NCBI GenBank assembly: GCA_019058015.1
Contig: JAHLWH010000174.1
Span: 1-46,216 of the forward strand
Source of the DNA: Promethearchaeota archaeon
Lineage (GTDB): Archaea > Asgardarchaeota > Lokiarchaeia > Sigyniarchaeales > SOKP01
Direction of reading: 5' to 3'
DNA: 46,216 nucleotides
The notes under the pieces are model-generated. The model ran no database searches, was not told the origin of the DNA, and worked only from the letters and a program-made list of their open reading frames with translations. Below, piece by piece: positions 19,580 to 43,521 of this stretch. Each line of letters starts with the position of its first letter. Position 1 is the first letter of the stretch. The translations under genes and the position numbers were made by a program.

Positions 19580-20857
19580 TTAAGAATTAAGAATTGGAGG
19601 ACCTTTTCCACATTTTCTTCTATAATGCTTCTTATCTAATTTTAAAATACCAAAACTACTCTTATTTACAATATTTGTATAATTTTTTAAAAAAGTAAGG
19701 TGATAACAATTTATAGTAAATTTGAGTGGTTCTGAATGCAAATTAAATGGAATTATATCTCGAAAATCTTCCAGACTTACATTAAAATGATGTTCCTTTT
19801 CATTTTTTAGGTCAATAATAACAATTTCACTTGCATCAGATTCTTCAATTTCTTTCCCAACCGAGAGATCTTGAGCAATTTCAGACTTAATTATTAGCGC
19901 ATCAAATACAACACCTTCGACTACTTCTTTTATCAAATCTGATGAATTTACTAAACTTTTGAACCCTGAAATTTTCTTTTTAACAAAAATATGATTTTTA
20001 ACCTGGTAATTAATTGTGCTCATTTTAATTCCAATCTTATCACAAATTCTCGAAATCGAAATGGAATTAATATCTTTAGCAATTAATGCTAATGTGGTCA
20101 CCACACCTGCGATCACATCATCTTTTGTATTCTTGATAAATGGCCAAAATTTTCGTAGTATAATATTTGCACTTTTTCCAAAATCATTGTTAAAATTAAA
20201 GAATTCACAAATTTCATTTATTTTTTTAAGGATCAATTGTTTTCTATCTCTCTTAGCGTAAGCTGGATAATAACGAGATGATTCCATTAAAATTTCTTTA
20301 AAATCATTTTTACTTACGTTTAAAATGTTTTTAAACTGTAGAAAATCGAAATTGATTGCTTTTACTTTTAAAACCATAAAGAGAATAACGGGGACTAACT
20401 TCTCGGCAGATCTTCCTTTAGTTCCTTTTTTTAAATTTTTCCAAACATTCTTGAAAACGAAGATACAATCAATTTTTAACGAATTAGGAAGATGAAGGGC
20501 AGTTATGATACGATTAAATTCTGAATCAGCTATTTGAAGTACTAAATTGCTATATTCATTACAAATCCTTTGCATCTTTGACATTCGCTCTAACTCACAA
20601 GAGCGTGAATTTGCTCTCCTTTCTAAATTAGTCCCTAATTTTGTAGTTTTCTTAAGTTCATTAGAATAAACTTGAATTGAATCTTGATTATATGGAGAGT
20701 TATATTGAAAGATCGGTAAATCTAATGTTAATCCACAATTTCTACAAACATAACCACCACCAGACTCTATAATCTCGTCTGATCTACAGCCGTCACAGAA
20801 AAAATCATTCGTTTTTTCTGGTAAATCAAATATTGGAAGGTTTTTATTAAACATCAT
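19580..20857 (-). CDS. Divergent transcription factor B (TFIIB/TFB)-like protein
   Basis: The 425-residue protein has a TFB-type N-terminal zinc ribbon, with Cys pairs C21-x2-C24 and C38-x2-C41, the second in VCRNCGLTLD. A B-reader/linker-like stretch contains KLGTNLERR. Two cyclin-fold-like helical repeats follow at about 80-185 and 190-290; the second includes DDVIAGVVTTLALIAKD and SRICDKIGIKMSTINYQVK. A C-terminal extension of about 120 residues with no known match ends in KCGKGPPILNS. TFB recruits RNA polymerase to TATA-bound TBP. The extension and weak conservation suggest an alternative or specialised factor rather than the main TFB. Confidence 0.75.
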   Translation of the reverse strand: MMFNKNLPIFDLPEKTNDFFCDGCRSDEIIESGGGYVCRNCGLTLDLPIFQYNSPYNQDSIQVYSNELKKTTKLGTNLERRANSRSCELERMSKMQRICNEYSNLVLQIADSEFNRIITALHLPNSLKIDCIFVFKNVWKNLKKGTKGRSAEKLVPVILFMVLKVKAINFDFLQFKNILNVSKNDFKEILMESSRYYPAYAKRDRKQLILKKINEICEFFNFNNDFGKSANIILRKFWPFIKNTKDDVIAGVVTTLALIAKDINSISISRICDKIGIKMSTINYQVKNHIFVKKKISGFKSLVNSSDLIKEVVEGVVFDALIIKSEIAQDLSVGKEIEESDASEIVIIDLKNEKEHHFNVSLEDFRDIIPFNLHSEPLKFTINCYHLTFLKNYTNIVNKSSFGILKLDKKHYRRKCGKGPPILNS

Positions 20858-22116: not shown

Positions 22117-24648
22117 TCATGCTAATGCATTAAATCCCTCAAATTCTTTCAATTTACTTTTATTTTTTCTTAATTTTGTTGATTGTATTATTGATTTACA
22201 GATTGTCAAGTTTAATCCTGTTTTATGCCGCAACATATGAGGGTTTTCAGAAAGAACTTTTGATGCTATGTGATATCCAGCATTAAACAAAATCCGACCC
22301 CTGACTCTTCCTACATTCCTTAACCTTAAAACTAAATCAAATAATTCTTCACGAATTCCGTGTGTAATTCGGATTATTAATGTTTCACATAAATTTGCAG
22401 TTTTATCATCATCTAGATAGGAAGCAATTATTCCAATAAATTTGATAATTCTGATAATGTTTTCTTTAATTGAAAATAAATCCCCCGCATAAATTTTGAA
22501 TTCATCTAAAACATTTTGTAAAGGTTCTTCATCTGCCCACCAAATGAGTGGTTTCATCATTTTCATATTTCTGATTCTCGATTCTGATTTCAATACAACA
22601 AAAGAACACTTAATTAAACTTTTATAATCATTAACCTCACCGTTTTCTAGCATTTTTCTAATTTTTACACCGCTTGATGGATACAGATATAATTTTATTA
22701 TTAATTTTCCAAAATTCGAGCAAATTAATTTATTTCTTTCTTTTAATAAAAGCCCTTTCTCAATTAAATAATCTAAAATATATTCTCCCCTGACGCTCTT
22801 AGGAATAATATCATTTACATATTTAGTTATATTTATATCCGTCTGAGAAACCAAAGATAAAAAAAAACTACTTACGTGATTGCAAAAAATAAAGCTACAA
22901 GAATTTTTTCCTAGTAGATCTTCTCCAACTCTATTATTAAAATTGCAACTACAGGTAATTCCGTTATCTATATTAAATCTTATATGAAAGATTCCAAAAT
23001 CAGTTTTGACAATTCCATCTATTGAATCCTTTGAAATATTTGTAATTTTTGTTTGATAGTTGGAATTTTTGATTTTTTCTAAAATTTCTGGATTTGAATG
23101 TAATTTCAATATATTTTCTGGTGTTATTTCTTTAATTCGTAGGAATTGATCTATGGGAATTATTTTATCCTTTATGCAATTCCAGTAATATGTTTTTTCA
23201 AAAAAATTTTTTAATTCATTAAATGAAATGGATTCTTGCTCAAAAACCCTTAATAATACTTGTTCTCTTAAAGTTTCAGTAGAATTTATGGCTGATTGAA
23301 TGGGATTGAATATAGGAACCAATCGCTTCCCATCCTCTCCAATTTGAAAATAGTGATCCTCCACCCATATTTTTTCTTCAATATTTTTTACAAGTATTAT
23401 TCCGTAACCTTTAAGATCTAAACCGGGTCTGCCTGCCCTGCCGAGCATTTGAAATATCTGATTTCTTGAAAAAGGCTCAAAATAAGTAAATCCATTGCTA
23501 AAATCTTCATAAAATTTAGAAAAATCAGTAATATTATCTACACTTGTTTGATACCTTTTAAAGTCTTTAATAATTACCATTCTTGCTGGTGTGTTTATTC
23601 CTGCCGAGAGAGTTGTTGTGGAACAAATTACTTTTAAAATTCTCTTATTGAAATATTCTTCGATTATTTGTCGTTCTTTTGAAAGAAGTCCTGCATGATG
23701 GAAAGCCACACCCGCTTTTATGCAGCTCTTTAATTCAGTAATTCCTCCCTTAATATTTTCTAATTGTTGGGATAATTTTTTACAAATTGATAGTTCTTGT
23801 GGATCCAACTTTTTCTTTATAAAATTTTTCAGGTAAAGAGCAAGCTTCTGTGCTTCCTTCCTTTTATTCATGAATATTATTATTTGGCCTTTTTTCTTTA
23901 AAATTTCATTTACATAATGTTTAATGGTCGAATCTTTATTTTGAGATACTTTAATATCATATTTTAAGGGAACCGGCCTTTCATTAGAAATTATTAAGAT
24001 AAATTCTTGCCCAAGTGAAGATAGCCAGTCGCAAAAAAATTCAGGATTTGCTACTGTGGCAGATAACGCAATAATTTGAGGATTAATCAAAAATTCATTC
24101 AATCTAACAATTAATGATTCTAACCGCGGACCTCTCTCGCTCTCACCAACACAATGTATTTCATCTATAATAATTGTAGTAATTTCATTAATCCATTTTT
24201 CTTCTTTATAATTTCTTAAGATTGAATCCATCTTCTCATAGGTAGTTATAATTATATCAGCTTTTTGGAGTTCCTTATCGTCAATGACAATATCCCCGAT
24301 TGATAATTCTGTTTTTATGCCATATTTGCTGTAGTTCTTTTTAAAATATTGATATTTCTCAGAAGCTAACGCTTTAAATGGTACTAAATAAACTGCCTTT
24401 CCGTAGTTTTTGAAAATATTATTAACAATACATAATTCGCCAATCAATGTTTTTCCGCTACCAGAAGGTGCGACAACCAAAAAGGATTTATTAAAATAGA
24501 GTCCCTTAATAATTGCTTCTTTTTGTATATCTCGTAAATAATAGATGTTATTTTTTAATAAGATTCTAATTATTCTCTCATCATCTATATATTGATTAAG
24601 TTCTGAGATTATTTCCTCCGGTGATTTTTCAAAATTAGTGGTTGTCAT
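22117..24648 (-). CDS. Ski2-family (Hel308-like) DNA/RNA helicase with an apparent SWIM zinc finger
   Basis: This 843-residue superfamily 2 ATPase has Walker A APSGSGKT (60-67), motif II DEIH (162-165), SAT (motif III, ALSATVANP) and motif VI QMLGRAGRPG. The layout matches Hel308/Ski2: RecA1, RecA2, winged helix and a ratchet-like helical domain, ending with helix-hairpin-helix-like residues (RLRNVGRVRGRILFNAGY). Between RecA2 and the C-terminal domains, near residues 560-600, an insert has the pattern C-S-C ... C-N-H, a SWIM-type zinc finger, which Hel308 itself lacks. Hel308 unwinds lagging strands at stalled forks; the SWIM insert suggests an added DNA or protein contact. ATG 24648 is the start. 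Confidence 0.88.
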   Translation of the reverse strand: MTTTNFEKSPEEIISELNQYIDDERIIRILLKNNIYYLRDIQKEAIIKGLYFNKSFLVVAPSGSGKTLIGELCIVNNIFKNYGKAVYLVPFKALASEKYQYFKKNYSKYGIKTELSIGDIVIDDKELQKADIIITTYEKMDSILRNYKEEKWINEITTIIIDEIHCVGESERGPRLESLIVRLNEFLINPQIIALSATVANPEFFCDWLSSLGQEFILIISNERPVPLKYDIKVSQNKDSTIKHYVNEILKKKGQIIIFMNKRKEAQKLALYLKNFIKKKLDPQELSICKKLSQQLENIKGGITELKSCIKAGVAFHHAGLLSKERQIIEEYFNKRILKVICSTTTLSAGINTPARMVIIKDFKRYQTSVDNITDFSKFYEDFSNGFTYFEPFSRNQIFQMLGRAGRPGLDLKGYGIILVKNIEEKIWVEDHYFQIGEDGKRLVPIFNPIQSAINSTETLREQVLLRVFEQESISFNELKNFFEKTYYWNCIKDKIIPIDQFLRIKEITPENILKLHSNPEILEKIKNSNYQTKITNISKDSIDGIVKTDFGIFHIRFNIDNGITCSCNFNNRVGEDLLGKNSCSFIFCNHVSSFFLSLVSQTDINITKYVNDIIPKSVRGEYILDYLIEKGLLLKERNKLICSNFGKLIIKLYLYPSSGVKIRKMLENGEVNDYKSLIKCSFVVLKSESRIRNMKMMKPLIWWADEEPLQNVLDEFKIYAGDLFSIKENIIRIIKFIGIIASYLDDDKTANLCETLIIRITHGIREELFDLVLRLRNVGRVRGRILFNAGYHIASKVLSENPHMLRHKTGLNLTICKSIIQSTKLRKNKSKLKEFEGFNALA

Positions 24649-25336: not shown

Positions 25337-27709
25337 ATGGACAATTACTTATATCAAAGTGATACGACATTAGATACTCCGGACAGAGCAGATTATAAAT
25401 ATCATTATAATGAAGCAGAGAAATTGGAGAAAGAAGGAACTCTAGAAAGTCTTGAGTCGGCTATTGTTCATATTGAGATGGCAATCAATAATTTAAACGA
25501 GAATAAAACAATACTACCAGAAAAATCATTAGATTCTGAGTTAAAAAAATTCGCTGAACATCAATTAATGATTAAAACAAATTATCATGAGAAACGGATT
25601 ATTAAATTGTTAAAAGAGGTAGAAAATGAGGAGAAGAGAAAGGATTTTAAGAAATTGGTAAATTTTTATAAGAAAATAAGAGATTCAATGATTTTTTTAT
25701 ATAAATTAGGAAATAAAGGCATAAACATTAATGAAATAAATGAAGTAAAAGAGAAAATTAGTAAATTAACTAAAAAGATATTAAATGAGAATTTATCAAT
25801 CTCTTTGAACAAAAAATCAAGTAAAACTGAGCAGAAGCCACATTCAGTTGAATTTAAAGAGATTAATGCAGAATTTGAGGAAATCAATTTTGACACAAAT
25901 GATCAAATACCGTTACAGAATCATGATACTGAAGGAGAAATAAATATACCGGTAGAGGTTGAATCCATGGTAATTGATCAAAATGAATTAGCTCAATCAG
26001 AAATGATATTATTAAAGGATAATGAAGTGGAGGAGGATAGCATAAATTCACTTGAAAAAATCAACAATAAGAATTTCTTAGATCAAATGATGGTGATTTC
26101 AGATACTCCTGAAATTGAAGAATATAGCATGGAGAGTGAAATTTTAGATAAAAAATCGGTCAAAATGTTATTAGCCCAGTTAAGAAAAACGTTAATTGCT
26201 AATAATTACCAAATTTTCCCGATTGATTTTCAAGAATTATATAATAGGATTGATTTTCTTGCTATAAAGATCTTTCATATTAATGAATTTCTAGATATAT
26301 GTCATATTCTACCTTTGAGACTCGCTAAACTATACGGTTTATTACTTGTCTCAGAAAAAAAGATCGATTATAATAGTAATAATACAAATCTATCTCAGAT
26401 TGAGCGTAAAAATCTAGTAAAGTCATTAAAAGAAGATATAAAAGATGTTGTTCAGATCTTATCAAATGATCTTGAAAATGAGGGCCCAATCGCTAAAAAT
26501 TTCATTTCTTATATTAATGATGAAATTTCCTTACAAAAAAGTAGAATATCAAGTAAAGGCTATTTTTATTGTAGAGGTCGTATGCAATACAATTTCATAA
26601 TTCAGCCAATTATTATTTCCCAAAACAAAATTGGATTTTTGGAGAGGAATATTCCATATGCATTTCAACAATCTTCTGATTTATATATTATTAATATTAA
26701 TGATTTAAATGATCTATTAGGTTACTTGGAACAGAAAAAAAGTTCAATTGAAAAAATTTGTATCAAAAAGCAGCCACTTAATTTATTTATAGATAATAAG
26801 ATAAAATTAAGTAATGCTTTAAGGTTAATAAGCATCGTATTAGGAGTATTTGGGGTTTCTTACTTACTTTCATTGTTTGTAAATGATAAAATTTTTGTCA
26901 GTGTGTTTCAAGTATTACAAATTCCATTTATAATAGGAATAATACTTCTATTAGGTTTCTTTATATACATATATAAAAAAAACCAAGACAAGATCATTCA
27001 AAAATATAATCTACCTTTCGGATTTTCCCATCCTGATTTTGATGGGCAAAATTTATCTATTGCTTTGAATCAAATTAATCCTCCAGAAAGAGAGCAATTC
27101 CTATACGAAATTTACAATAAGCGTCCAATTCCCAATGATTTATTACAAAAGATCCAAAATCCTCACACTTTTTCGGAATTTGTTGAATTATTTGAAACAA
27201 ACTTAGTAAATATCGCATTAAATAATGAGAATTTAACTAAATTAAAACAATCTTTTAAATATTTTAAACAAAAACATAGTTTCTACAAAGCATATTGTAT
27301 TCTTCGGTCAATTCTTGTGTTGAAATTACGAGATTTTATAAGACATCGCTTGAATAAATCAACCGATGATATCCATAATATCCCTTCCCTACTAGATTTA
27401 ATATGCGCTGAATGTAATATCCCATTTAACAATGAGTCTATTAAAGCGATAAAAAGAATAGAGAAAATTCGGGAACTGAAGGGACAAATAAATCAATATT
27501 TTTTTACTCAAATTGTAAATATAGTATACGATATTATCGAAATAATTCAGAACAATACCAAATTGACTGAAGATCATAAAGAATTTAATAATTTTCATGA
27601 AGAAAATGTTCAAAAATTTGAAGAGAATACTATTTTTGAAAAAAGTATTGGTTATACGGGAGGAGACCCACCAGAAAATATATTTAAAGATTTCTTAAAG
27701 GATGATTAA
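25337..27709 (+). CDS. Operon gene 1: large membrane protein with HEPN-like C-terminal module
   Basis: The 790-residue protein has no signal peptide. Residues 1-160 are helical (TPR/MIT-like, with EAEKLEKEG and IVHIEMAINNL), and 165-260 are acidic and low in complexity. Residues 265-490 are folded and of unknown type. Two membrane helices lie at about 494-516 and 523-547, both termini facing the cytosol. The C-terminal module (about 623-740) is all-helical: FYKAYCILRSILVLKLRDFI, then PSLLDLI, then IKRIEKIRELKG, resembling a HEPN fold without the R-x4-6-H nuclease motif. The next gene starts within its last codons. I infer a scaffold subunit of a membrane complex together with the ATPase at 29330. 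Confidence 0.7.
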   Translation: MDNYLYQSDTTLDTPDRADYKYHYNEAEKLEKEGTLESLESAIVHIEMAINNLNENKTILPEKSLDSELKKFAEHQLMIKTNYHEKRIIKLLKEVENEEKRKDFKKLVNFYKKIRDSMIFLYKLGNKGININEINEVKEKISKLTKKILNENLSISLNKKSSKTEQKPHSVEFKEINAEFEEINFDTNDQIPLQNHDTEGEINIPVEVESMVIDQNELAQSEMILLKDNEVEEDSINSLEKINNKNFLDQMMVISDTPEIEEYSMESEILDKKSVKMLLAQLRKTLIANNYQIFPIDFQELYNRIDFLAIKIFHINEFLDICHILPLRLAKLYGLLLVSEKKIDYNSNNTNLSQIERKNLVKSLKEDIKDVVQILSNDLENEGPIAKNFISYINDEISLQKSRISSKGYFYCRGRMQYNFIIQPIIISQNKIGFLERNIPYAFQQSSDLYIININDLNDLLGYLEQKKSSIEKICIKKQPLNLFIDNKIKLSNALRLISIVLGVFGVSYLLSLFVNDKIFVSVFQVLQIPFIIGIILLLGFFIYIYKKNQDKIIQKYNLPFGFSHPDFDGQNLSIALNQINPPEREQFLYEIYNKRPIPNDLLQKIQNPHTFSEFVELFETNLVNIALNNENLTKLKQSFKYFKQKHSFYKAYCILRSILVLKLRDFIRHRLNKSTDDIHNIPSLLDLICAECNIPFNNESIKAIKRIEKIRELKGQINQYFFTQIVNIVYDIIEIIQNNTKLTEDHKEFNNFHEENVQKFEENTIFEKSIGYTGGDPPENIFKDFLKDD

Positions 27710-28451
27710 AATGATTGAGAATAGTGAGAAGATTGTAAGATGTTTCAAAATTTTGTTTTTCATAGGGATGGGACTGGTTATTGCATCCTTTTTCTCAGAG
27801 TGGTATTATTACGCTTATATCATCAATGGAACTACAATGATTTGGGGATATAATATAATCATAGGATGGAATAGCCTTACAAATAATTCTGAAAATTATC
27901 CTGGGATAGTTGAAATTGATATGATAATCCTTTCACTATATATGTTTATTTTTATTTTAGCAGCAATATCATTTATTTATATTTCACTTGAGCGTCCGCT
28001 TTTTAGCAGAAAAGATTTTTATAATAAGGTAAAGACGTTAAATTATATTTTTCCCGTATATCTTGGATTTAATCTTATAATATTAGCATTATTTTTATTT
28101 AGTTTATTCCAGGCTAATTTCTATTTTCCATTTTTGAAGCTTTATATTGTTTCCGAAGACTCTGAGACACTTTATTGGCTTGGTCCTGGATGTATTTTAC
28201 ATATGATATCTTTTATTATTATGTTTCCATTCTCTACTGCTGTTTTACAAATCCCTCGAAAATTTAAATTAAAGGAGAATAAAATTGAAATTGATGAAAT
28301 AATTGCAATAAGTTCTAGAAAAATAGATTTTGAGAAAATTATTATGAAAGAAAGGATAAAGAAAGATACAACATTCAATCAATCTTCTAACGGTAAATTC
28401 CAAAAAGAAAAATTTAATCTGGATAATATACGCTTGGAGAGTGAATCATAA
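27702..28451 (+). CDS. Operon gene 2: four-helix membrane protein
   Basis: The 249-residue protein has membrane helices at about 14-34, 75-100, 114-137 and 163-185 and a charged cytosolic tail of about 60 residues (KFKLKENKIEIDE onward). The first extracellular loop holds a Trp/Tyr-rich stretch (SEWYYYAYIING). The start ATG 27702 overlaps the preceding gene by eight bases; the in-frame ATG at 27711, one base after that gene's stop, is an alternative. No family is recognised. Tight coupling suggests equimolar production with its neighbours. Confidence 0.7.
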   Translation: MIKMIENSEKIVRCFKILFFIGMGLVIASFFSEWYYYAYIINGTTMIWGYNIIIGWNSLTNNSENYPGIVEIDMIILSLYMFIFILAAISFIYISLERPLFSRKDFYNKVKTLNYIFPVYLGFNLIILALFLFSLFQANFYFPFLKLYIVSEDSETLYWLGPGCILHMISFIIMFPFSTAVLQIPRKFKLKENKIEIDEIIAISSRKIDFEKIIMKERIKKDTTFNQSSNGKFQKEKFNLDNIRLESES

Positions 28452-29333
28452 GTGTCAAAATTATTAGAAGCCACTAAATTGTTATTACACAATAAAAATT
28501 TCAATGAATTGTATAAAATTTATCTGGATTTGATTTATAACACGGTTATTGAAATCGGTGTAAAATTAAATATTAGAACTCCTAAATCCAATGAAAAGAT
28601 TTATGATTATATGATAATAATCGATAAGTTCCTCTTAAATAATATTAATATTGTTTTATTTGGAGAACATATTCAGAAAATAATTACTTTTTACAATTTA
28701 TATGATAAAGCTGAAAATTCTTCAGAAAATCTAATAATAGATCAGTATGATGTAAAAGAATTAGTAAAAGAATATTATGAACTTAAAGCCTTGCCCGTCC
28801 CTAATGTTTTTCAAGATATTGAGAGTTATAAGACAAGCAAATATGCCAATTTTCAAACATTAAAGGCTTGTAATTTAATTTTTGGTAAAAATATTAAAAA
28901 TTATAATAGTAGTACCAACATTGAAGATGCATTATATGAAATGATTTCCAATCGAATTCAAAATGATTCTGATAAAATCAGGAGAGATTATCAGAAGGGA
29001 AAGCTATCTTTTGATAAAAGTTTCAAAAAATTGGCAACCTTAGATTCAATAAAAAAAACAATAGAGACTTCAAAGAAAAAATCCAGCCAAATAGAGATCA
29101 GTGGAACCTTGTCTGATAATTTAGAATATAAAATCTATACATTACGGATGCCGGGATATCTCATATTATCTTTTGGAATTATTTCAGCGATATTATTGGG
29201 TTTTATATTTATGGAGATATTTTCAGTGCCAATACTGGCTATATCTTTATATCAAAGTGTGATATTTTCTGGATTAATTTGTTTTATTTGTTTTTATATC
29301 TTCATTAAATTCTTTATTAAAGAAAAAAAATGA
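28452..29333 (+). CDS. Operon gene 3: HEPN-like module plus C-terminal membrane hairpin
   Basis: The 293-residue protein starts at a GTG directly after the previous stop. The N-terminal 100 residues are helical, with FNELYKIYLDLIYNTVIEIG and IQKIITFYNLYDKAENS. They parallel the modules at the C-termini of the 790- and 1284-residue proteins of the same operon. A middle helical region (about 155-220) is rich in Lys and Ser. A two-helix membrane hairpin (about 233-286) ends in FFIKEKK, so the protein sits on the cytosolic face. Its stop overlaps the ATG of the ATPase gene by four bases. Function is not known. Confidence 0.7.
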   Translation: MSKLLEATKLLLHNKNFNELYKIYLDLIYNTVIEIGVKLNIRTPKSNEKIYDYMIIIDKFLLNNINIVLFGEHIQKIITFYNLYDKAENSSENLIIDQYDVKELVKEYYELKALPVPNVFQDIESYKTSKYANFQTLKACNLIFGKNIKNYNSSTNIEDALYEMISNRIQNDSDKIRRDYQKGKLSFDKSFKKLATLDSIKKTIETSKKKSSQIEISGTLSDNLEYKIYTLRMPGYLILSFGIISAILLGFIFMEIFSVPILAISLYQSVIFSGLICFICFYIFIKFFIKEKK

Positions 29334-32300
29334 GTAAATCACCAACAGAAATCACAACAAGTTTGAGTCCTTCAGAGAAAGAAGATTTAAATAGATTTGG
29401 AGCCGTTGCTGATATTAATATTTGGAATGAGCGTCCTGCCTTCAAAGACGTGAATAAATTTTTTATTTTTTTAAAAAGAGGTTTTATCATTGGTATATTT
29501 ATGATATTTACTTTATTATTATATTATTGTAGTGGAGCATTGGTAGTTTCATTCTTATTCCCAAGTTTGATAATTATTTCTTTTGTGTTAATATTTTTCC
29601 AAGATATTTTTTATTATTTTCCTAAATTCAGATATTCCGGAATAAAAAGAATTGAATTATTTAAGAATTGCTCATTTAGGATTAAAGATAAGAAATCTGA
29701 CACTTTATTCATTTTCAATAGAAAAGAAAATTTAGTTACTGGTATAAAGTTATTTAAAATAGACATATTACCTGAAACAATTCAAGGAAATGTTTATCGA
29801 TTTTTAAATTCTCTTGATAGAGTAGGAGTTCCTTATGTTTATCAAATAATTCAGACTTCAAATATTCAGTTAATAAAGAGAGCTTCGGACTTTTCTGATA
29901 AAGAAGAAAAATTAAGAATTCGAAATACTCTACAAAATTCTGAGGCGTCTTTTAATACTACTTTATTCTTGGCAACTTCTTATTGTAATATGAATAATAT
30001 AATTTCTGTTGCATTGGATGAAATTCAAAATTCATTAGATCATTACGGGAAAAGCATTATTTCCTCCTTTGTGGCTTTTTTTCCTCATTATCATTTAACA
30101 GAACTAAAAGGATTGGAATTAATAAATGGATTGTATACTTTATTCTTTAAGACAGAAGTTGAACCGAGAGAAGATAATAATAAATCATTTAAAAATAGAA
30201 ATTGTAGGTCTACAATAATCAGAATTGTTTATTTGTTTATTTTTATTAGTTTCGAAGCATTTTTATTACACTCGGTAGGCATTGGTGTTGATTTTAATAT
30301 ATTAATTAATTTAATTGTTTTGATTGGAATTGTATTCATCTACTGGCGAGAAGTATTTAGTTCTTTGACAGACAAATTCATCTTTAGGGATTTTTTTAGA
30401 TTACATCTTTTTAGTGATTATAAATTTTTTATGAGAGCTGGTATTCCAGATTCTGTTTTTGTTTGGAATGAAAAATTGAAATTATTAACCGGGATTAAGC
30501 TATTTACGGTTAGAGATATTATGTCGCGTGGTTATTGTAACCCCGACAAATTCATCAGAGCAATTTCGCCTTTTAAATTGTCTTATTCATATACTACAAT
30601 TCAAGCGCCTCTTTCTCAATTTGATATTGAAAAAGATTATATGAAATACTTTAGAAATAAGATTATTTACAGCATGCAAAAAAATTATAATAATGAGGAG
30701 AAACTTGTAGAATGGCTTTCTATGAGAGCTGGTATTTGGCGATTTATGTTTCTTATTTCTATAAATTCCTACAAATTTACATCCTATGTTTCAAATGAAA
30801 TTATTGATAATTTGGATATGGAATTACAGGAGAAATTTGAGACCATTCACCTTGCGTTTCAGGAAACATATAGTGATTATGTGCCATTAGTATTAAGAAA
30901 TCGAAGATTAATTTTAGGAATTAAAGTAATTCTTTTAAAAAACAAGTTTATCCGTCGTGGAGGATCAAATTTACCTTATTCTCTTATACAAGGTAAAATT
31001 TTGCAAGAAGTTAATAAAATAATGAATGAATTAAAGAAAGGAATTAAAACTCAAGTAGCTGCGGAGTTTAATTCACCCTTAAGCTTAAAAAATGAAATTT
31101 TAATTGGTAATACAATAAATACTGAATTTTTTAGGGAGGAAATACCTTTTGGTTTATTATTTAATCAGATTAATAACTTAATCATTAGTGGTGGAACTCA
31201 CAGACAAAGAGAAGATATTAGTTTGAAAATAATAATAGAATTGGTTAAAAACAAAATACCTTCAATTATATTTGATTTTAATGGAAAATATAGTAGGCTT
31301 ATTGATATTTTCTCTAAGACACAATTTTATCATGATTTCTATTATTTTAAACTAGGTCAAAGTTTTAATATCGAGTTATTGAATTCGGGAATAAAAAATG
31401 ACCCCAATAATTTAGAATATTTGGACTATATCTGTGAAGTGATCGGTTGTGTAAGAAAATTAAATGATAAAGAAATACAAACGGTTAGGGATTTGATATC
31501 AAAAGTCCCAATGGATTCTAAATCAATAACTATGGATATGGAAATGGAAGATAAGTGTAAAAAAAATAAAAATTATAATGAAAAGTATATTGCCTCAATA
31601 TTTAATGACTATACTCATCAAACTAAAAATACAATCAGTGCGATAGGTATTGTGGAGGGTAATATTAATTCAAATGATTTTCTAAAAGATGCTAAAACTG
31701 TTATTATTGATATGAGTATTTTACGCCCCCCATTTAATTTATTTGCAATGTTTGTGTTAATCTCAAGAATAATTCATTATACTCATGAGGGGGGAGATTA
31801 TATTCCTAAGTTGTTAGCAATGCCTAACGTTGAATATTTTTTCGATAAATTTTATCTTGATAAATTTGTTAAGCCTTATACAATTGATAGATTCCTTGAT
31901 CCATTGAAAGAAAAAGGATTTGGATTTATGTTCTTAGTTAATGAAGTAAATAAATTACATCCAACATCTTTTGATTATATTCAAAATTTTATGGCTCTAA
32001 AAACGGTGCAACCGGCAGACTTAATGGTTTTAAAAAACCTTCTTAACTTGCAAGAAATAGGTCAAGGATATTATACAAAATCACGAAAAAATACATATCA
32101 TATAGATTTTTTGAAACAATTAAGGGATAATAATGCTATAGTTTCAAGAGATGATATTTACCAACCCTTTCCCGTTAAAATCGATATTGATTCCCTTACG
32201 GCGATAGCCGCTCCAAAGTATTCGGAATTAAGTGAATATATGAAAAGATTTGGGTATAATTTTCAGAAGACGGAAGAACAAATTTTAAATTCGGTGAAAA

Positions 32301-33184
32301 AAACGATATTTGAAAAAGATTTCCACGAATATCTTTTTCTTTTAGATGATATTATCAATTTTCTTAGAGCCTTAAATCGAATAGACACAATTGGTAATAT
32401 TTATGAGTATAAAGTTAAAGAACAACTTTTTAAGTTTATACACAAAAAATTAGTAGCTAAAGGCTACAAGAGAAAACAAATTAGTAAAATTAGAGATAAT
32501 TTGTTTAATCTATTAATTTCCCATCAATATTTGGTTGAAAATCACCCAAGAGAAGCTGGTGGCTCTCAATCGATGAGGACATCGTATTCGGTTGGACATC
32601 AATTTGTGAAAGCATTGGATGATCATTATAAAACACAAGAATCTTTCGATCACCAGGTTGATTTACAACCTATTGAAGATGAAAAAATTGAAGTAAATAA
32701 AATTATCCCTAAAAAGGAAGAGATTTTTGAATATTTCGTTCCACCAGATAGTGAACAGAATAAGCAACAAGTGATAATAAATACTAACAAAAAGATTAGT
32801 AATTGTAAAAATATCTTGGCAAGTCTTATAGGAGCATTTTTAGTTAATGGAACTATAAGGGCTGGTAAAGAATTAAATAGAAATCATTATAAAGATACAA
32901 TTTTAAAAGTGAGAAATGTATTATCTAAATTTTTATATAAATTATATGATTTTAAATTTGATGAAAAAAGTAATGTAAAAATCCACAGTGATGTACTATT
33001 AGAAGCGGTAGATTTTATTGCTGAATCTAATATCATTCCTTTCAAAGGGCAAGAATTATATGACATTCTCAAAAAGATTAATATTATTGAAATTAAAAGT
33101 GGAGAGTTAGAAAATACTGCAAAAAATCATTATGAAATGCTTTATGATTTTACACAAAAAATTTTGATAGGGGTCTTAGATTAG
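29330..33184 (+). CDS. Operon gene 4: membrane-anchored HerA/VirB4-like ATPase with degenerate Walker A
   Basis: The 1284-residue protein has a duplicated N-terminal part. A hairpin of membrane helices (about 45-97) and a soluble domain with LVTGIKLFKIDILP are followed by a second hairpin (about 297-345) and a domain with LLTGIKLFTVRDIM. Residues about 600-960 have the HerA/VirB4/FtsK layout: a strand leading to LIISGGTHRQREDIS where Walker A should be, then SIIFDFNGKYSRL as in HerA, and TVIIDMSILRP (about 789-799) at Walker B. The invariant GK[ST] of the P-loop is missing. A winged-helix-like region and a HEPN-like C-terminal module (about 1165-1284) follow. VirB4/HerA ATPases drive secretion, conjugation or DNA translocation; here the subunit may be a non-hydrolysing structural homologue. 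Confidence 0.7.
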   Translation: MSKSPTEITTSLSPSEKEDLNRFGAVADINIWNERPAFKDVNKFFIFLKRGFIIGIFMIFTLLLYYCSGALVVSFLFPSLIIISFVLIFFQDIFYYFPKFRYSGIKRIELFKNCSFRIKDKKSDTLFIFNRKENLVTGIKLFKIDILPETIQGNVYRFLNSLDRVGVPYVYQIIQTSNIQLIKRASDFSDKEEKLRIRNTLQNSEASFNTTLFLATSYCNMNNIISVALDEIQNSLDHYGKSIISSFVAFFPHYHLTELKGLELINGLYTLFFKTEVEPREDNNKSFKNRNCRSTIIRIVYLFIFISFEAFLLHSVGIGVDFNILINLIVLIGIVFIYWREVFSSLTDKFIFRDFFRLHLFSDYKFFMRAGIPDSVFVWNEKLKLLTGIKLFTVRDIMSRGYCNPDKFIRAISPFKLSYSYTTIQAPLSQFDIEKDYMKYFRNKIIYSMQKNYNNEEKLVEWLSMRAGIWRFMFLISINSYKFTSYVSNEIIDNLDMELQEKFETIHLAFQETYSDYVPLVLRNRRLILGIKVILLKNKFIRRGGSNLPYSLIQGKILQEVNKIMNELKKGIKTQVAAEFNSPLSLKNEILIGNTINTEFFREEIPFGLLFNQINNLIISGGTHRQREDISLKIIIELVKNKIPSIIFDFNGKYSRLIDIFSKTQFYHDFYYFKLGQSFNIELLNSGIKNDPNNLEYLDYICEVIGCVRKLNDKEIQTVRDLISKVPMDSKSITMDMEMEDKCKKNKNYNEKYIASIFNDYTHQTKNTISAIGIVEGNINSNDFLKDAKTVIIDMSILRPPFNLFAMFVLISRIIHYTHEGGDYIPKLLAMPNVEYFFDKFYLDKFVKPYTIDRFLDPLKEKGFGFMFLVNEVNKLHPTSFDYIQNFMALKTVQPADLMVLKNLLNLQEIGQGYYTKSRKNTYHIDFLKQLRDNNAIVSRDDIYQPFPVKIDIDSLTAIAAPKYSELSEYMKRFGYNFQKTEEQILNSVKKTIFEKDFHEYLFLLDDIINFLRALNRIDTIGNIYEYKVKEQLFKFIHKKLVAKGYKRKQISKIRDNLFNLLISHQYLVENHPREAGGSQSMRTSYSVGHQFVKALDDHYKTQESFDHQVDLQPIEDEKIEVNKIIPKKEEIFEYFVPPDSEQNKQQVIINTNKKISNCKNILASLIGAFLVNGTIRAGKELNRNHYKDTILKVRNVLSKFLYKLYDFKFDEKSNVKIHSDVLLEAVDFIAESNIIPFKGQELYDILKKINIIEIKSGELENTAKNHYEMLYDFTQKILIGVLD

Positions 33185-33874: not shown

Positions 33875-34309
33875 ATGAGAATTAAAAAAAATCAGATGAA
33901 TTATTATTTCTTAATTACACTTGGATTAAATCTTACTTCTATTGTGATGGGAATTCTCTATTTCGTGATTGGACCTGATTTAATATTTGGATTTTTATTT
34001 AGTATTATCTTAGTCATCTCATGGTTTCTTGACATCGGTCTAGTTTTATTAAATGATTTCAAACTCGCAAAAAACAATGCAACTGGAAAAATTCTTAATC
34101 GACTTGGTTATAGTTTTGTTATTTTCCAGATATTTGGGGCGGTTTGCATGGTGGGTGGACTCTTCTTTTTGAATGCAGATTGGACATCGCCTTTAGTTCA
34201 ATATTCATTGATATGTATTGGCTTTTTTGGCTTTTTTCTTTTTGGCAGCATCTTGGCTTACTTGAATATAAAGAAATTAGATATTCGGGAGGCATGGAAC
34301 TTTGAATAA
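33875..34309 (+). CDS. Four-helix membrane protein coupled to the esterase gene
   Basis: The 144-residue protein has membrane helices at about 10-30, 35-57, 79-100 and 108-130, and a short C-terminal tail (NIKKLDIREAWNFE). No family is recognised. Its stop codon lies inside the first codons of the downstream esterase gene, so the two are translated together. A partner or anchor role for the esterase is plausible. Confidence 0.65.
   Translation: MRIKKNQMNYYFLITLGLNLTSIVMGILYFVIGPDLIFGFLFSIILVISWFLDIGLVLLNDFKLAKNNATGKILNRLGYSFVIFQIFGAVCMVGGLFFLNADWTSPLVQYSLICIGFFGFFLFGSILAYLNIKKLDIREAWNFE
34287..34292 (+). promoter_or_regulatory. Shine-Dalgarno GGGAGG deciding the TTG start of the esterase
   Basis: GGGAGG ends nine bases before TTG 34302. 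The next in-frame ATG would remove the first membrane helix, so this site supports the TTG start and translational coupling. Confidence 0.6.
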
Positions 34310-35573
34310 ACTCAAGATCTTCAAGCTATTATTGATAATTTTTTGTATCATAATCTTAGTTTGGGGTTGCTTGTGGATATATTTATTATTTGTCGGAGGT
34401 GGGCAGTTACGGGGTGTTATGATATTACTAGAGGAATTTGTCGCGCAAAGTGCGACTTTAATGGTTGGTCTTTGCGTTTCAGCCACAATTTTATTGTTGA
34501 AACTCTTTTCTTCTAAAAGAATCCGTCATCCAAAACAATATTATACTCTCGCTATTATTGGTTTTACAATTGCTGGTTTGAATTCTATTTCCTTACTAGC
34601 CACCCCCTTCACAATATTGCATGCCAATGCTGAATTCGATGAAGTTTTTGGACCTAATTGGGAAAGTACCATCCCTGAAGATGTTAAACAACATTTCCTC
34701 CAGACACCTTATATTCTGCCTGCGCATATTCTAACAATTCCCGAAAAACCAATTCATGTAGAAAAAGATGTTCTATTTTATGAAGGTGAAAATATCACAC
34801 TGTTCTTTGATGTATATATGTCTGCTCAATCATCCTCACAATTGCCTGGTAATGGGAGTGTCATTATCAATCTACACCCAGGTGCTTGGGTTTCTGGGGG
34901 AAAAGGTACTTGGAATATGATTTCAACTAGTAAATATTTGGCAGGTCAAGGTTATGTTGTATTTGACATTGAGTACGGATTGATCGAGGGTTTCCATTAT
35001 TATGCTCAAGCTCCCGATACACCCGAGCATGTGATGGGTAATTTCACTATAGAAGATCAGATTCGACATATAGGTATCTTCACGAAGCTACTTGAGACTA
35101 ACTTTTCGATGACATATGGGGCAAATTTGGATTCCGTTTATTTTATGGGTCGATCAGCTGGAGCACATCTTGCAGGTGTAATGGGATTAGGATGTAATGA
35201 AGAATATCATAATGGTACGTTTAGTCCTAACTTGAATGTGAAGGGGATAATTCCTCTGTATTCTCCTTCAGCAGCTCCAGAAATATTCTTAAAAGAAAAT
35301 AAAACTACAAATCCCGAGATGTACGATGCTTACGACCTTACTAAGCTTGCTGACCCCCAAGACCCACCTGCACTTTTCTTTCAAGGAACAAGTGATGGTC
35401 AAGTATCGATCACAAGGGTTGAAACTTTAGTATCAGAGATGGAATTGAAAGGGGTTAAATGCTGTCTTTTAATATTCCCATTCGCAGGACATGCTAATGA
35501 TTTCGTTTTAAGTACGAACATTGGTCAAGTATGGGTTTATTACTTAGAACGTTTTCTATATTTAACACAATAA
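34302..35573 (+). CDS. Membrane-anchored alpha/beta-hydrolase (BD-FAE/HSL-like esterase)
   Basis: The 423-residue protein has about three N-terminal membrane helices (5-27, 45-67, 78-102) followed by an extracytoplasmic alpha/beta-hydrolase domain. HPGAW (192-196) stands for the HGGGW oxyanion motif, GRSAGAH holds nucleophile Ser285, FQGTSDGQV holds Asp365 and FAGHAND holds His397, so the triad is complete. Related enzymes cleave acyl or feruloyl esters, or short-chain lipids; the substrate here is unknown. The TTG start has a good ribosome binding site and overlaps the upstream membrane gene by eight bases. The sequence is less AT-rich than its neighbours, which may reflect a different history or higher expression. 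Confidence 0.85.
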   Translation: MNKLKIFKLLLIIFCIIILVWGCLWIYLLFVGGGQLRGVMILLEEFVAQSATLMVGLCVSATILLLKLFSSKRIRHPKQYYTLAIIGFTIAGLNSISLLATPFTILHANAEFDEVFGPNWESTIPEDVKQHFLQTPYILPAHILTIPEKPIHVEKDVLFYEGENITLFFDVYMSAQSSSQLPGNGSVIINLHPGAWVSGGKGTWNMISTSKYLAGQGYVVFDIEYGLIEGFHYYAQAPDTPEHVMGNFTIEDQIRHIGIFTKLLETNFSMTYGANLDSVYFMGRSAGAHLAGVMGLGCNEEYHNGTFSPNLNVKGIIPLYSPSAAPEIFLKENKTTNPEMYDAYDLTKLADPQDPPALFFQGTSDGQVSITRVETLVSEMELKGVKCCLLIFPFAGHANDFVLSTNIGQVWVYYLERFLYLTQ

Positions 35574-36656: not shown

Positions 36657-36881
36657 ATGGCACAAATAACTTCGATAATTTTAATAATAATTGCATCTTT
36701 GGTAATTGGATATATATTTTTCTTTATCAAAAATGTTATATCATTTTATATAAATTCAAATTACAACTCCTTGATTTTTTACAGAGAGTTTTTTTTTCTT
36801 TATATAAATCATTTTTATTTTATTTTTATAGATAAGAGATATCAAATATTGTATTATGAAAGAAACAATAAGAAATATTAA
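36657..36881 (+). CDS. Possible small membrane protein
   Basis: The 74-codon frame begins with a convincing membrane helix (residues 5-27) and its ATG sits at leaderless distance from a TATA box. However, the second half is dominated by Phe, Tyr and Ile from AT-rich codons and overlaps the next gene by 26 bases. It may be real, or only the leader of the helicase operon. Confidence 0.3.
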   Translation: MAQITSIILIIIASLVIGYIFFFIKNVISFYINSNYNSLIFYREFFFLYINHFYFIFIDKRYQILYYERNNKKY

Positions 36882-37230
36882 AAATATATCAGCATATACA
36901 GCAAACACTCAATTAAATACTTTAAATTTCATCGTAGAATCCATAAAAGATATTATTTTTGACACTCAATATTTAGCAATATTAAAAGAGACAATTTTAA
37001 AATTAATTGATGGGCAAATTGAACAAAAGGACTTAAAAAAATTGATAATTGAGCATGGAGTTAGTTCGGTGGAAGATATTAAAAAATTGATTGAATTATA
37101 TACTGAAATAGAGATTAAAAGAATTATTAAAAGGGTTGAAGCACAAAAAGATAAAATTAAAAAATATAATCAATTGCTTTCAAAAATTGCTCCTAGAGTA
37201 GAAAAAATTTATAACAAATTGAGTTTATAA
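36856..37230 (+). CDS. Helical protein directly upstream of the Hef-type helicase
   Basis: The 124-residue, all-helical, Lys/Ile-rich protein has LIIEHGVSSVEDIKKLIELY (about 66-86) and a coiled-coil-like C-terminus (IIKRVEAQKDKIKKYNQLL). No family is recognised. Its stop is seven bases before the GTG of the helicase gene, so the two form an operon and it may be a helicase partner. Confidence 0.6.
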   Translation: MKETIRNIKNISAYTANTQLNTLNFIVESIKDIIFDTQYLAILKETILKLIDGQIEQKDLKKLIIEHGVSSVEDIKKLIELYTEIEIKRIIKRVEAQKDKIKKYNQLLSKIAPRVEKIYNKLSL

Positions 37231-37237
37231 AGAGTGA

Positions 37238-39295
37238 GTGAAAATTAGCAATTCAAGGACTTTAAAAAATGAAGAGAATAATCTATTTAAATTCAATTTT
37301 CTTAAAAACGAGAAAATTGATCATAGAGAGTATCAAATAAATATTGCTAAGAAATGTTTTGGTAATAATTCCTTAGTTGTGATTCCAACTGGATTAGGGA
37401 AAACGATAATATCTATAATTGTTGCAGCTCATACTCTTGAGAATTCTCCACCACATTGTAAAGTGATAATTTTAGCACCAACACGTCCTTTGATTAACCA
37501 ACATCGTGAAAACTTCTTAAAATTCATGAATATTCCCAGTGAAAAATTCAGTATTTTAACTGGACAGATTGAACCAAATAAAAGAACATATGAATTTATG
37601 AATAATCAGGTCTTATTTTATACTCCTCAAACATTAAGGAATGACATCTTAAATAACAGATATTCTTTAATGAATGTTTGTTTAGTTATATTCGATGAGG
37701 CCCATAGAGCCCAAGGAGATTATGCTTATTGTCAAATTGCCGATGAATATATTGAGCATAATAATGATGGAATTATACTTGGTCTTACTGCCTCTCCTGG
37801 ATCAAATAAAGAAAAGATTTCTATTTTATGTAAGAATTTACACATTCCCTTAAACAACATTTATCTAAGAACACGTAAAGATAATGATGTAAAAGATTAC
37901 ATCCAGCCAATGAAAATTTGGAAAGTTGGTGTTGATATGACAGATTTAATGAGATTAGTTCATTCAGCTTTAAAAAATATGATTCAAGAAAGATTAAATT
38001 ATCTAAATTCTCTTGGATTTCTCGATTCTAATAAGGGACAATTGGAAAATATCTATAAGAAAGATTTAATAAGATTAAATAGAGAACTTTTAGAAATAAT
38101 TAATGGAGATAGAAGTAAAACAGGTGTTTATAAAGCATTATCGATTAATGCACAAATACTTAGGCTGTTTCATATGTTAAGCTTAGTTGAAAGTCAAGGA
38201 CTTGATTCATTATTATCTTATTTAAAATCTATGAAAAATCAATCTTCAAAAAAAAATGCCTCTAAAGCGTTAATTAGTTTAGCGAATGATTATGAAATCA
38301 ATAAAATCTTCAATGAACTTCAACAATATAATGAAATAGATGAACTACTATTAATCCATCCAAAATTTAATATTTGTAAACAAATAATCCTAAAGGAGCT
38401 GAAGGTAAATCCTGATACAAGAATTATAATATTTTCAAAACTAAGAGATTCAGTAGCAACTATCACTTCTAAATTAAAAAAAAATAGTTTAATAAGACCA
38501 AAAAGATTTGTGGGACAAGCAACTAAATCAAGTCAAGATAAAGGACTTTCTCAGAAAAAACAGATAGAAATTCTTAATGATTTTAAAGAAGGGAAATATA
38601 ATGTTTTAATTTCTACAAATGTCGCAGAAGAGGGGCTTGATATTGCAGAATGTGATCTTGTTATATTTTATGATGTTGTTGCTTCAGAAATTAGACTTAT
38701 ACAGCGTAAAGGGCGAACAGCTAGAATTCGTGAGGGTAAAGTAGTTATCCTTTATTGTAGAGGAACTTCAGATGAGATATATTTACATATTTCTTTAAAT
38801 AGACTTAAAAAAATGCATGAATTATTAAAAACCCCGAAAAAAATCCCTGAAATTATTAAACCAAAAAAAAAAAATGATAATTTAGATAAGTATCTTTCTC
38901 CTATTGTAAAATTAAGTAAAAATATTCCTTTATTTTTTGGAATTCGACAATTTCTGAGAAATTCCGGCATTATGTTTCAGATATCTTCCTGCCAATATCA
39001 CATTCATATTGGAAAAAAATTAGGGATTCATATTTTTCCAGCAAGAAAGATTACTAAATTGAACAGTGAAGGTCTTCTTAAAGACTGGATTCATGAATTT
39101 CAAAGCAAGTTCGATCTAGCTGTGATAATTGCAGAATTTCTTGATTTCGAATCGATGTTTGAAGAAGACCTAAATCTCGTAAGACATAAGATTTCTAGAA
39201 TTGGAGATGGTTATGAAATCCCAGTAATTTTTATCGGTAAACAAGAAGAACTTCAAAAGATTTTAAAAGGTTTTTTCGATAAGATTCTAAAATAA
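37238..39295 (+). CDS. hef: Hef/FANCM/Mph1-type superfamily 2 helicase, nuclease part degenerate
   Basis: The 685-residue protein has motif I PTGLGKT (50-56), motif Ia APTRPL, motif II DEAHRAQGDYAY (from 153), motif III LTASPG, and motif VI QRKGRTAR (489-496) near the end of the second RecA domain. A long helical insert (about 230-370) matches the thumb-like domain of Hef/FANCM. Archaeal Hef normally ends in an XPF-type nuclease with an ERK-x3-D site and a helix-hairpin-helix pair. Here the C-terminal 140 residues keep a possible nuclease-like core (FDLAVIIAEFLDF) but no ERK-x3-D and no hairpin. The enzyme likely remodels stalled forks and branched DNA without cutting. GTG 37238 is the start. 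Confidence 0.85.
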   Translation: MKISNSRTLKNEENNLFKFNFLKNEKIDHREYQINIAKKCFGNNSLVVIPTGLGKTIISIIVAAHTLENSPPHCKVIILAPTRPLINQHRENFLKFMNIPSEKFSILTGQIEPNKRTYEFMNNQVLFYTPQTLRNDILNNRYSLMNVCLVIFDEAHRAQGDYAYCQIADEYIEHNNDGIILGLTASPGSNKEKISILCKNLHIPLNNIYLRTRKDNDVKDYIQPMKIWKVGVDMTDLMRLVHSALKNMIQERLNYLNSLGFLDSNKGQLENIYKKDLIRLNRELLEIINGDRSKTGVYKALSINAQILRLFHMLSLVESQGLDSLLSYLKSMKNQSSKKNASKALISLANDYEINKIFNELQQYNEIDELLLIHPKFNICKQIILKELKVNPDTRIIIFSKLRDSVATITSKLKKNSLIRPKRFVGQATKSSQDKGLSQKKQIEILNDFKEGKYNVLISTNVAEEGLDIAECDLVIFYDVVASEIRLIQRKGRTARIREGKVVILYCRGTSDEIYLHISLNRLKKMHELLKTPKKIPEIIKPKKKNDNLDKYLSPIVKLSKNIPLFFGIRQFLRNSGIMFQISSCQYHIHIGKKLGIHIFPARKITKLNSEGLLKDWIHEFQSKFDLAVIIAEFLDFESMFEEDLNLVRHKISRIGDGYEIPVIFIGKQEELQKILKGFFDKILK

Positions 39296-42429: not shown

Positions 42430-43521
42430 TTAGATAAAAGAAAATAGTTTCCTCTGCGTGAAAGTTATTAATTTCTTCTTTTTAAAATAAATAATGCTTT
42501 TTTCGTAATTATTAGTAAATTTAATTATATTATTTTTAATTCTTTTTGAATTTAATGTATGATCCTCACACAGAAATTCCATAATTTTCTCTATTTGGGG
42601 ATAATTCCAGTTAAAATTAGAATATTTGCTAATTACTTCGGGAAATAGAAATATTTTTCTAATCTCTGCGATTTTTTTTTCATTTAACCTTGAGAAATCA
42701 AATTTAGACGCGCAATTTTTGATAACTGATTCAATATGGCCAAATTTTTTAATAAACCGTAATGCTAATTTGGGACCTATTCCCATAATTCCTTTATTAT
42801 AATCTGTTCCAATAAGCATTGCGATATCGACTAATTGAAATATATCAATGCCCCATTTTTTTAAATTCTCGTTTAATTTAATGATGGATGGTTTTACTTT
42901 TGCATATTGCCAACTATTATTTATTTTCCTTACTCTCGATTTTGATAAATTTCTAACTTGTCTCAAACTTCCGAAGACTAAACAATCAAAATCCTGACTA
43001 ATTGTAAAATCTACAACTTTATCTTTGACCAAACAAGCACATTGTGACTCCGCTGATGCAGGAGATTCCACGTAAGGAATTCCCAAATATGATAACATCT
43101 TTTTTGATTCTTGAATTGTATTAATCCACAAAAATTCTTTACCAGTAGCGATTTGTTGAGCAAGTTGGTAATTATGATTTTCTATTGATTCTTTGTATTT
43201 TTGTTTAATATATTGGAAATCATGTAATTTATCTTTGGTTATCAATCGTTTATATGGATGTACACAACCATCAAAGCAAAAAATTGGGAGTATTTTTTTA
43301 AAATAATAAAAATTTATTCGATTTAACAGTCCATAAAGATGAGAAATAATCCTTCTTGTCCGATCTATCATATATTTTGAGTTGAAATAACTGGATTTTT
43401 TATAAGAATAATTTAATAAAGACATGACTACATTAGGTCCATCTACTGCAACTATACTGCCTTCCAAATCCTTTAATTCAATTTGATGAATAGTCAGAAT
43501 ATCTTTAATTTTTACTCCCAT
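42430..43521 (-). CDS. fen: Flap endonuclease FEN1 (XPG family) with one active-site change
   Basis: This 363-residue structure-specific nuclease trims 5' flaps during Okazaki-fragment processing and base-excision repair. The N-domain has VAVDGPN (Asp27) and CFDG (Asp84). The I-domain has SPASAESQC (Glu158), SQDFDCLVFG (Asp177, Asp179) and IGTDYNKGIMGIGPKLALR (Asp240 plus the helix-hairpin-helix). The acid equivalent to human Glu158 is Ser156; the other six metal ligands are present. The C-terminus TQRKLFSFI is a PCNA-binding PIP box. Start ATG 43521 gives MGVKIKD in place of the typical MGV-x-[LF]-x-x-[LI] opening. It is divergent from the Roadblock operon. Confidence 0.9.
   Translation of the reverse strand: MGVKIKDILTIHQIELKDLEGSIVAVDGPNVVMSLLNYSYKKSSYFNSKYMIDRTRRIISHLYGLLNRINFYYFKKILPIFCFDGCVHPYKRLITKDKLHDFQYIKQKYKESIENHNYQLAQQIATGKEFLWINTIQESKKMLSYLGIPYVESPASAESQCACLVKDKVVDFTISQDFDCLVFGSLRQVRNLSKSRVRKINNSWQYAKVKPSIIKLNENLKKWGIDIFQLVDIAMLIGTDYNKGIMGIGPKLALRFIKKFGHIESVIKNCASKFDFSRLNEKKIAEIRKIFLFPEVISKYSNFNWNYPQIEKIMEFLCEDHTLNSKRIKNNIIKFTNNYEKSIIYFKKKKLITFTQRKLFSFI

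Follow-up and report, generated by a model that had tools for sequence, protein, structure and literature searches.

The window, 46,216 nucleotides long, is one whole contig (JAHLWH010000174.1 of assembly GCA_019058015.1; G000:C174) of a Lokiarchaeial genome, Promethearchaeota archaeon. It carries a four-gene operon, termed here A-B-C-D, whose last gene encodes a membrane protein of the VirB4/HerA superfamily without a P-loop, and which is accompanied by divergent paralogues of recombination genes. The operon genes are listed by position, strand and product (aa, amino acids; TM, transmembrane).

25337–27709, + strand: gene A, 790 aa; alpha/beta domain, N-terminal part, two TM helices.
27702–28451, + strand: gene B, 249 aa; four-TM protein, matches no known family.
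28452–29333, + strand: gene C, 293 aa, GTG start; no known family.
29330–33184, + strand: gene D, 1284 aa; VirB4/HerA core without P-loop.

Direct reading of the sequence confirmed the tight junctions reported in the preliminary description of this DNA: A and B overlap by 8 nt, B and C are joined with zero spacing (TAA directly followed by GTG), and C and D overlap by 4 nt (ATGA). With an alternative in-frame ATG of B at 27711 the A/B overlap disappears. Hydropathy gave two TM segments in A, four in B, at least one (probably two) in C and at least three (probably four) in D, in agreement with the membrane segments described earlier for all four products. A, B, C and D are real protein-coding genes under purifying selection, with ratios of nonsynonymous to synonymous substitution rates (dN/dS) against the G001 orthologues of 0.21, 0.28, 0.23 and 0.175, respectively.

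Protein D consists, in order, of a TM pair, a VirB4-N-like domain, a second TM pair, a second VirB4-N-like domain, the core, a winged helix and a helical tail. Its second module and core are separate genes in other Asgard classes. D belongs to the VirB4/HerA superfamily by fold and homology. A core profile built on diverse Asgard members matched HerA structures in the PDB (E 1.7e-8) and also DptH, TdpA and VirB4; the Lokiarchaeial D profile found nothing in the PDB, matches being obtained with the phylum-wide profile alone. The AlphaFold2 (AF2) model of residues 1–1112 had a mean predicted local distance difference test score (pLDDT) of 76.5, about 90 in the core blocks, and a predicted TM-score (pTM) of 0.59. 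Its best PDB match by Foldseek was TrwK/VirB4 of R388 (E 6.5e-18, about 980 columns), followed by HerA (6e-12); structural TM-scores by query were modest (0.28–0.30), in line with a model of several domains whose packing is uncertain (pTM 0.59). A TM+VirB4-N+HerA protein of a non-Asgard archaeon (L183) was among the best outside matches (hhalign 99%, E 1.6e-18). The 349-aa TM protein of L107 had no detectable relationship to D. The central place given earlier to a VirB4/HerA-type protein is borne out by these profile and structural matches, and the RecA-like fold expected of the 1284-residue protein by the RecA/VirB4-type fold of the model.

The preliminary description also ascribed to D the ordered landmarks of HerA/VirB4 ATPases. 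Their fold and spacing were recovered; the catalytic landmarks are missing, Walker A and Walker B being degenerate.

31181–31216, + strand: degenerate Walker A of D, IISGGTHRQRED, residues 618–629; G-x-T-G-x-G-K-S/T replaced, K to R and S/T to E.
31811–31846, + strand: degenerate Walker B region of D, LLAMPNVEYFFD, residues 828–839.

The Walker A position reads SGGTHRQRED (residues 620–629). In the HMMER alignment the GSTGxGKS of the HerA, DptH, TdpA and VirB4 structures stands opposite GGTxxER of the D family. GK[ST] is present in 0 of 83 distinct Asgard D-family sequences; Arg occupies the position of the Walker A lysine in 75 of the 83, with adjacent Glu or Asp in 53. Walker B is lost in the Lokiarchaeial clade and partly kept (DE/DD) in distant Asgard relatives of D. 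Eleven matched proteins with an intact P-loop (from non-Asgard archaea, with a few Asgard HerA-like proteins) were used for comparison. In a tree a single split with ultrafast bootstrap support (UFBoot) of 99 parts all 28 P-loop-less proteins from the intact ones; the intact side includes the HerA-like ATPase c14 and two own-genome HerA-like proteins. Since no family member retains the P-loop, D is probably not a functional VirB4/HerA-type ATPase, loss of hydrolysis being judged from residues. The loss of the P-loop is old and the replacement residues are conserved; D is therefore not a decaying pseudogene. Stand-alone D paralogues without A-B-C (L041, L046, L049, L052, L061) adjoin c14, which is 630–690 aa long with Walker A and B intact.

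Of the related genomes searched, 29 of 58 from nearby taxa and 69 of 228 in the phylum carried D; its copies are multiple, patchy and sometimes broken. The A-B-C-D order, whose persistence in relatives had been proposed as a check, is conserved in at least 14 genomes of the same GTDB (Lokiarchaeial) family, with identity of A–C to the window down to about 16–27%. The same helicase gene usually stands divergently next to these loci, and the small gene c4 often comes after D. The system is Asgard-specific in the form found, as had been suggested. A full A-B-C-D set occurs on one contig of a Hodarchaeum metagenome-assembled genome (L116/L143), where transfer and misbinning are indistinguishable. 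Co-occurrence was assessed in 27 near-complete Lokiarchaeial genomes, picked by completeness and by the result of the D search. B was present in 17 of the 18 D-bearing genomes and in none of the 9 that lack D (Fisher p 2e-6); the membrane module is therefore gained and lost as a unit. The helicase was present in 15 of 18 against 2 of 9 (p 0.004), and the FEN1 paralogue in 14 of 18 against 4 of 9 (p 0.10, a trend only). At L064 (G004:C5) the D gene is a short remnant beside intact A-B-C, and another D lies elsewhere in G004. A protein with a CDC48_N domain and a TPR protein with a shared Lokiarchaeial N-terminal domain precede D copies at L042:6087-7754, L043 and L039; in some Lokiarchaeial genomes the D copies that adjoin TPR or CDC48_N-domain proteins are stand-alone.

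None of A-D was assigned to a family of Pfam or NCBIfam, so that A, B and C stay as unrecognised as first described; weak matches to DUF2207_C, Ilm1 and EbsA look like TM composition. In most other genera the A orthologues have an N-terminal helix-hairpin-helix (HhH) DNA-binding domain (HHH_5, E 4e-12 and 6e-12), which is lacking in the genus of the window. The AF2 model of A was of low confidence and had no structural match in the PDB. C has a helical cytoplasmic part followed by a C-terminal TM hairpin. Apparent similarity between A and D was an artefact of one natural in-frame fusion (L055, G023:C64), in which A is joined to the second half of D. Three candidate homologues were rejected: a 488-aa protein in a Heimdall-type operon (L173) compared with A (hhalign only 0.1%), a C-like small protein in f22 that failed comparison, and a C-like protein in f2 whose match was confined to the TM hairpin.

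The coordinates 25337–33184 are too narrow for the system. The window's helicase gene and its Hef-like and FEN1-like genes are part of the same cluster, and the operon is embedded in recombination genes, the main clue, which was absent from the earlier guess of transport or envelope remodelling. The genes outside the operon are as follows.

22117–24648, − strand: Hel308-like helicase, oriented divergently to the operon and bearing a SWIM zinc motif (CSC...CNH); distinct from canonical Hel308.
36856–37230, + strand: c4, small helical protein, in some cases fused to an NYN RNase domain; immediately follows D in other genera.
37238–39295, + strand: Hef/FANCM-like helicase (PRK13766 E 2e-173, below equivalog cut-off); near D also in other genera and in f27.
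42430–43521, − strand: divergent FEN1 paralogue (TIGR03674 280 bits, cut-off 352); canonical FEN1 is on contig C83.
24835–25260, + strand: 141-aa protein in the interval between helicase and A; seen in the genus of the window only, membership of the system uncertain.

The association extends over the phylum. Outside the Lokiarchaeial family f1, 14 Asgard families had usable loci, and in 12 of them a gene for a SWIM-bearing Hel308, a RadA/RadB-like protein, FEN1, XPD or Hef lies within about 10 kb of D. The divergent copies linked to D are written below as RadA' and FEN1'. A long operon of f8 (Heimdall-type) comprises RadA', two small genes, an XPD-like gene, two small genes, D, the SWIM-helicase, RadA-like genes and FEN1'. 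RadA' and XPD adjoin D in f28, and RadA' and FEN1' flank it in f10. In f2, genes for D, RadA', Hef and the helicase share one contig of 13.5 kb with those for an M50-like protein, a homologue of A and a RadB-like protein.

Homologues of RadA, FEN1 and Hel308 were located in 16 genomes. Canonical, high-scoring RadA and FEN1 are present away from D (G124 has divergent copies only), and some of the 16 genomes are without a clear canonical Hel308. At least one divergent copy of RadA, FEN1 or Hel308 lies within 25 kb of D in 15 of the 16, a count that is not an unbiased rate because the genomes were partly picked after their neighbours had been seen; by chance, about 1.4% of 3.5-Mb genomes would be expected to have a given gene that close to D. 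Three divergent copies occur near D in several genomes (G133, G124, G053, G054, G051, G182). D-linked FEN1 forms one clade (UFBoot 99), as does D-linked RadA (UFBoot 97, in the final tree from which a RadB-like rogue sequence was removed), with the exception of G180, which falls outside. The P-loop of RadA' is retained in all copies examined. D-linked helicases form one clade (UFBoot 100), including a G180 copy first labelled canonical yet SWIM-bearing; the SWIM-like motif CxC...CxH is present in 11 of 11 linked helicases and in 0 of 6 canonical Hel308. The helicase of the window (337 bits against NF040935, cut-off 1200; separate clade) is not canonical Hel308. This cut-off also excludes canonical Asgard Hel308 (600–677 bits), and the clade and the motif therefore carry the test. 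The FEN1-like protein of the window is likewise not a canonical archaeal FEN1, scoring below cut-off and falling in the separate clade. Duplication of RadA in Asgard archaea has been reported, in work that did not cover gene neighbourhoods (PMC12722695).

Further genes recur near D. An M50-like membrane protein, in some cases with HExxH, stands beside D in several Asgard families (L038, L053, L059, L065, L111, L112, L120, L179, L180). Homologues of c4 are fused to a Zc3h12a-type NYN RNase or a HEPN-like domain (L040:11565-12434, L053:629-1804, L058:6438-7346). Positions 19580–20857 of the window encode a highly diverged TFB-like protein, and similar genes are found near D in several Lokiarchaeial loci and in f27. 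The interval between D and c4 (33875–35573) encodes a four-TM protein and an alpha/beta-hydrolase-like membrane protein, a pair that among the compared loci is confined to this genus. Small two-TM proteins that have a short basic loop and pilin-like topology occur near D at L056:5985-7045, L059:5806-6162, L065:4641-4898 and L066:11189-11536.

In the Ced and Ted systems, which import DNA, recombination genes accompany a membrane VirB4/HerA protein; Ted loci carry HerA and Rad50, a precedent for recombination genes at VirB4-type import loci (PMC9905601). D resembles CedB and TedB in being a membrane-anchored, chromosomally encoded VirB4/HerA-type protein with recombination genes co-located. It differs in that CedB and TedB are active ATPases whereas D has no P-loop; for A, B and C there is no match to any known family, and RadA, FEN1 and Hel308 paralogues are unreported for Ced and Ted. 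Homologues of VirB6/CedA and VirB2/CedA1 were not found, B being a four-TM protein and the CedA and TedA profiles not having been compared directly. TrwK/VirB4 of the R388 type IV secretion system (T4SS) is the best structural match to D, VirB4 N-terminal domains included, but D lacks the Walker A lysine and serine and has tandem modules of TM segments plus VirB4-N. Unlike R388, the operon has no relaxase, VirB8 or coupling protein. Among the operon genes no match to a pilin, VirB6, VirB8, relaxase or coupling protein was obtained in Pfam or NCBIfam, and none was recognisable at the window, as first noted. HerA, known from HerA-NurA end resection and from SIR2-HerA and DUF4297-HerA defence, shares the superfamily core; D differs in being catalytically degenerate and in having membrane segments, and no NurA, SIR2 or DUF4297 partner was found. 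The D-linked Hel308, archaeal FEN1 and RadA homologues are divergent paralogues below equivalog cut-offs, the helicase with an inserted SWIM motif. By the tests of membership made, the system appears to be neither a T4SS nor a member of Ced or Ted. No description of it was found in the open-access literature searched.

A-B-C-D very likely forms the membrane arm of a second, dedicated recombination system present Asgard-wide. D would descend from membrane-bound VirB4/HerA (CedB-like) ATPases with loss of nucleotide binding, and would serve as a membrane-anchored ring or scaffold that binds or docks DNA, not as a motor. A, with its HhH domain in most genera, B and C would form the remainder of a membrane complex. 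The DNA work would fall to the linked enzymes, namely the SWIM-bearing Hel308-like helicase, the RadA and FEN1 paralogues and the XPD/Hef-like helicases, with the helicases and RadA' as the energy source. Given such a membrane arm, DNA import or exchange is tentatively favoured as its use, at somewhat less than even confidence, because the known pairings of a membrane VirB4/HerA protein with recombination genes (Ced, Ted) import DNA. Incoming strands would be passed to the dedicated recombinase, in functional analogy to Ced/Ted or competence. Taken whole, a membrane arm of a second recombination system, handling DNA at the membrane and with import as the favoured use, is slightly more likely than not.

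Several points weigh against this proposal. Gene neighbourhood need not equal function. A, B and C were undetected in most non-Lokiarchaeial Asgard families, the exceptions being A (hhalign 96%) and B in f2 and a weak A match in f11. In Lokiarchaeial genera other than that of the window the FEN1 paralogue lies about 30–46 kb from D or on another contig. No homologue of VirB2, VirB6 or VirB8 and no DNA channel was identified, and small two-TM proteins near D, considered as T4SS pilins, gave no significant match to the T4SS_pilin model (E 0.17–7). We know of no precedent for an import machine without a VirB4 motor.

The main rival, nearly as likely as import or exchange though on its own a minority possibility, is membrane-tethered repair, in which the complex would anchor chromosomal recombination or repair intermediates, no DNA would cross the membrane, and a D scaffold would recruit RadA', the SWIM-helicase and FEN1'. 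Every linked enzyme is an intracellular repair enzyme, D is without the motor that transport would need, and DNA binding is known from other families for the C-terminal winged-helix and HhH domains; but these genomes already have canonical RadA, FEN1 and usually Hel308, so that a second, membrane-bound set needs a job of its own, and patchy loss in near-complete Lokiarchaeial genomes suits an accessory function better than core repair. The multiple, patchy and sometimes broken D copies, the c4 fusions to NYN RNase or HEPN-like domains and the intact c14 beside stand-alone D would also suit a defence or conflict system, with a membrane HerA-like sensor recruiting nucleases against foreign DNA as in SIR2-HerA and DUF4297-HerA. 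Since HerA defence proteins have an active ATPase and the same recombination genes stand alongside D Asgard-wide, which is atypical of defence islands, this is improbable. Slightly less likely still is a mixed ring in which dead D pairs with an active HerA paralogue supplying hydrolysis: c14, with P-loop and Walker B intact, adjoins D in five loci, and rings of active and inactive subunits are common in AAA-type machines, but c14 accompanies only stand-alone D and never A-B-C-D. Protein secretion or envelope remodelling with incidental DNA-repair neighbours is very unlikely. All four proteins have TM segments and VirB4 also serves protein-secreting T4SS, but the same recombination paralogues are linked in many separate Asgard families. 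Overall, the preliminary interpretation is partly supported.

To our knowledge, DNA exchange and repair in Asgard archaea are largely unknown. The VirB4/HerA superfamily gains a conserved P-loop-less branch, in which a motor has apparently been turned into a structural part. Lateral transfer and recombination in an Asgard-like ancestor are presupposed by theories of how meiosis arose. A more speculative and rather doubtful extension is that Asgard archaea carry an ancestral dedicated system of genetic exchange, in which a membrane complex with an ATP-independent VirB4 derivative would feed DNA to RadA', SWIM-Hel308 and FEN1'. If true, this would be a recombination set apart from housekeeping repair, like the eukaryotic meiotic DMC1, MER3/HFM1 and EXO1; the meiotic parallel is one of composition only, and RadA' scores do not favour DMC1. 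The gene set is defined and testable: it joins a conserved membrane complex whose VirB4 is probably no ATPase to a second, divergent set of recombinase, flap nuclease and helicase, and the association is maintained throughout the phylum. The system is a new candidate for how Asgard archaea, relatives of eukaryotes, may handle or exchange DNA at the membrane.

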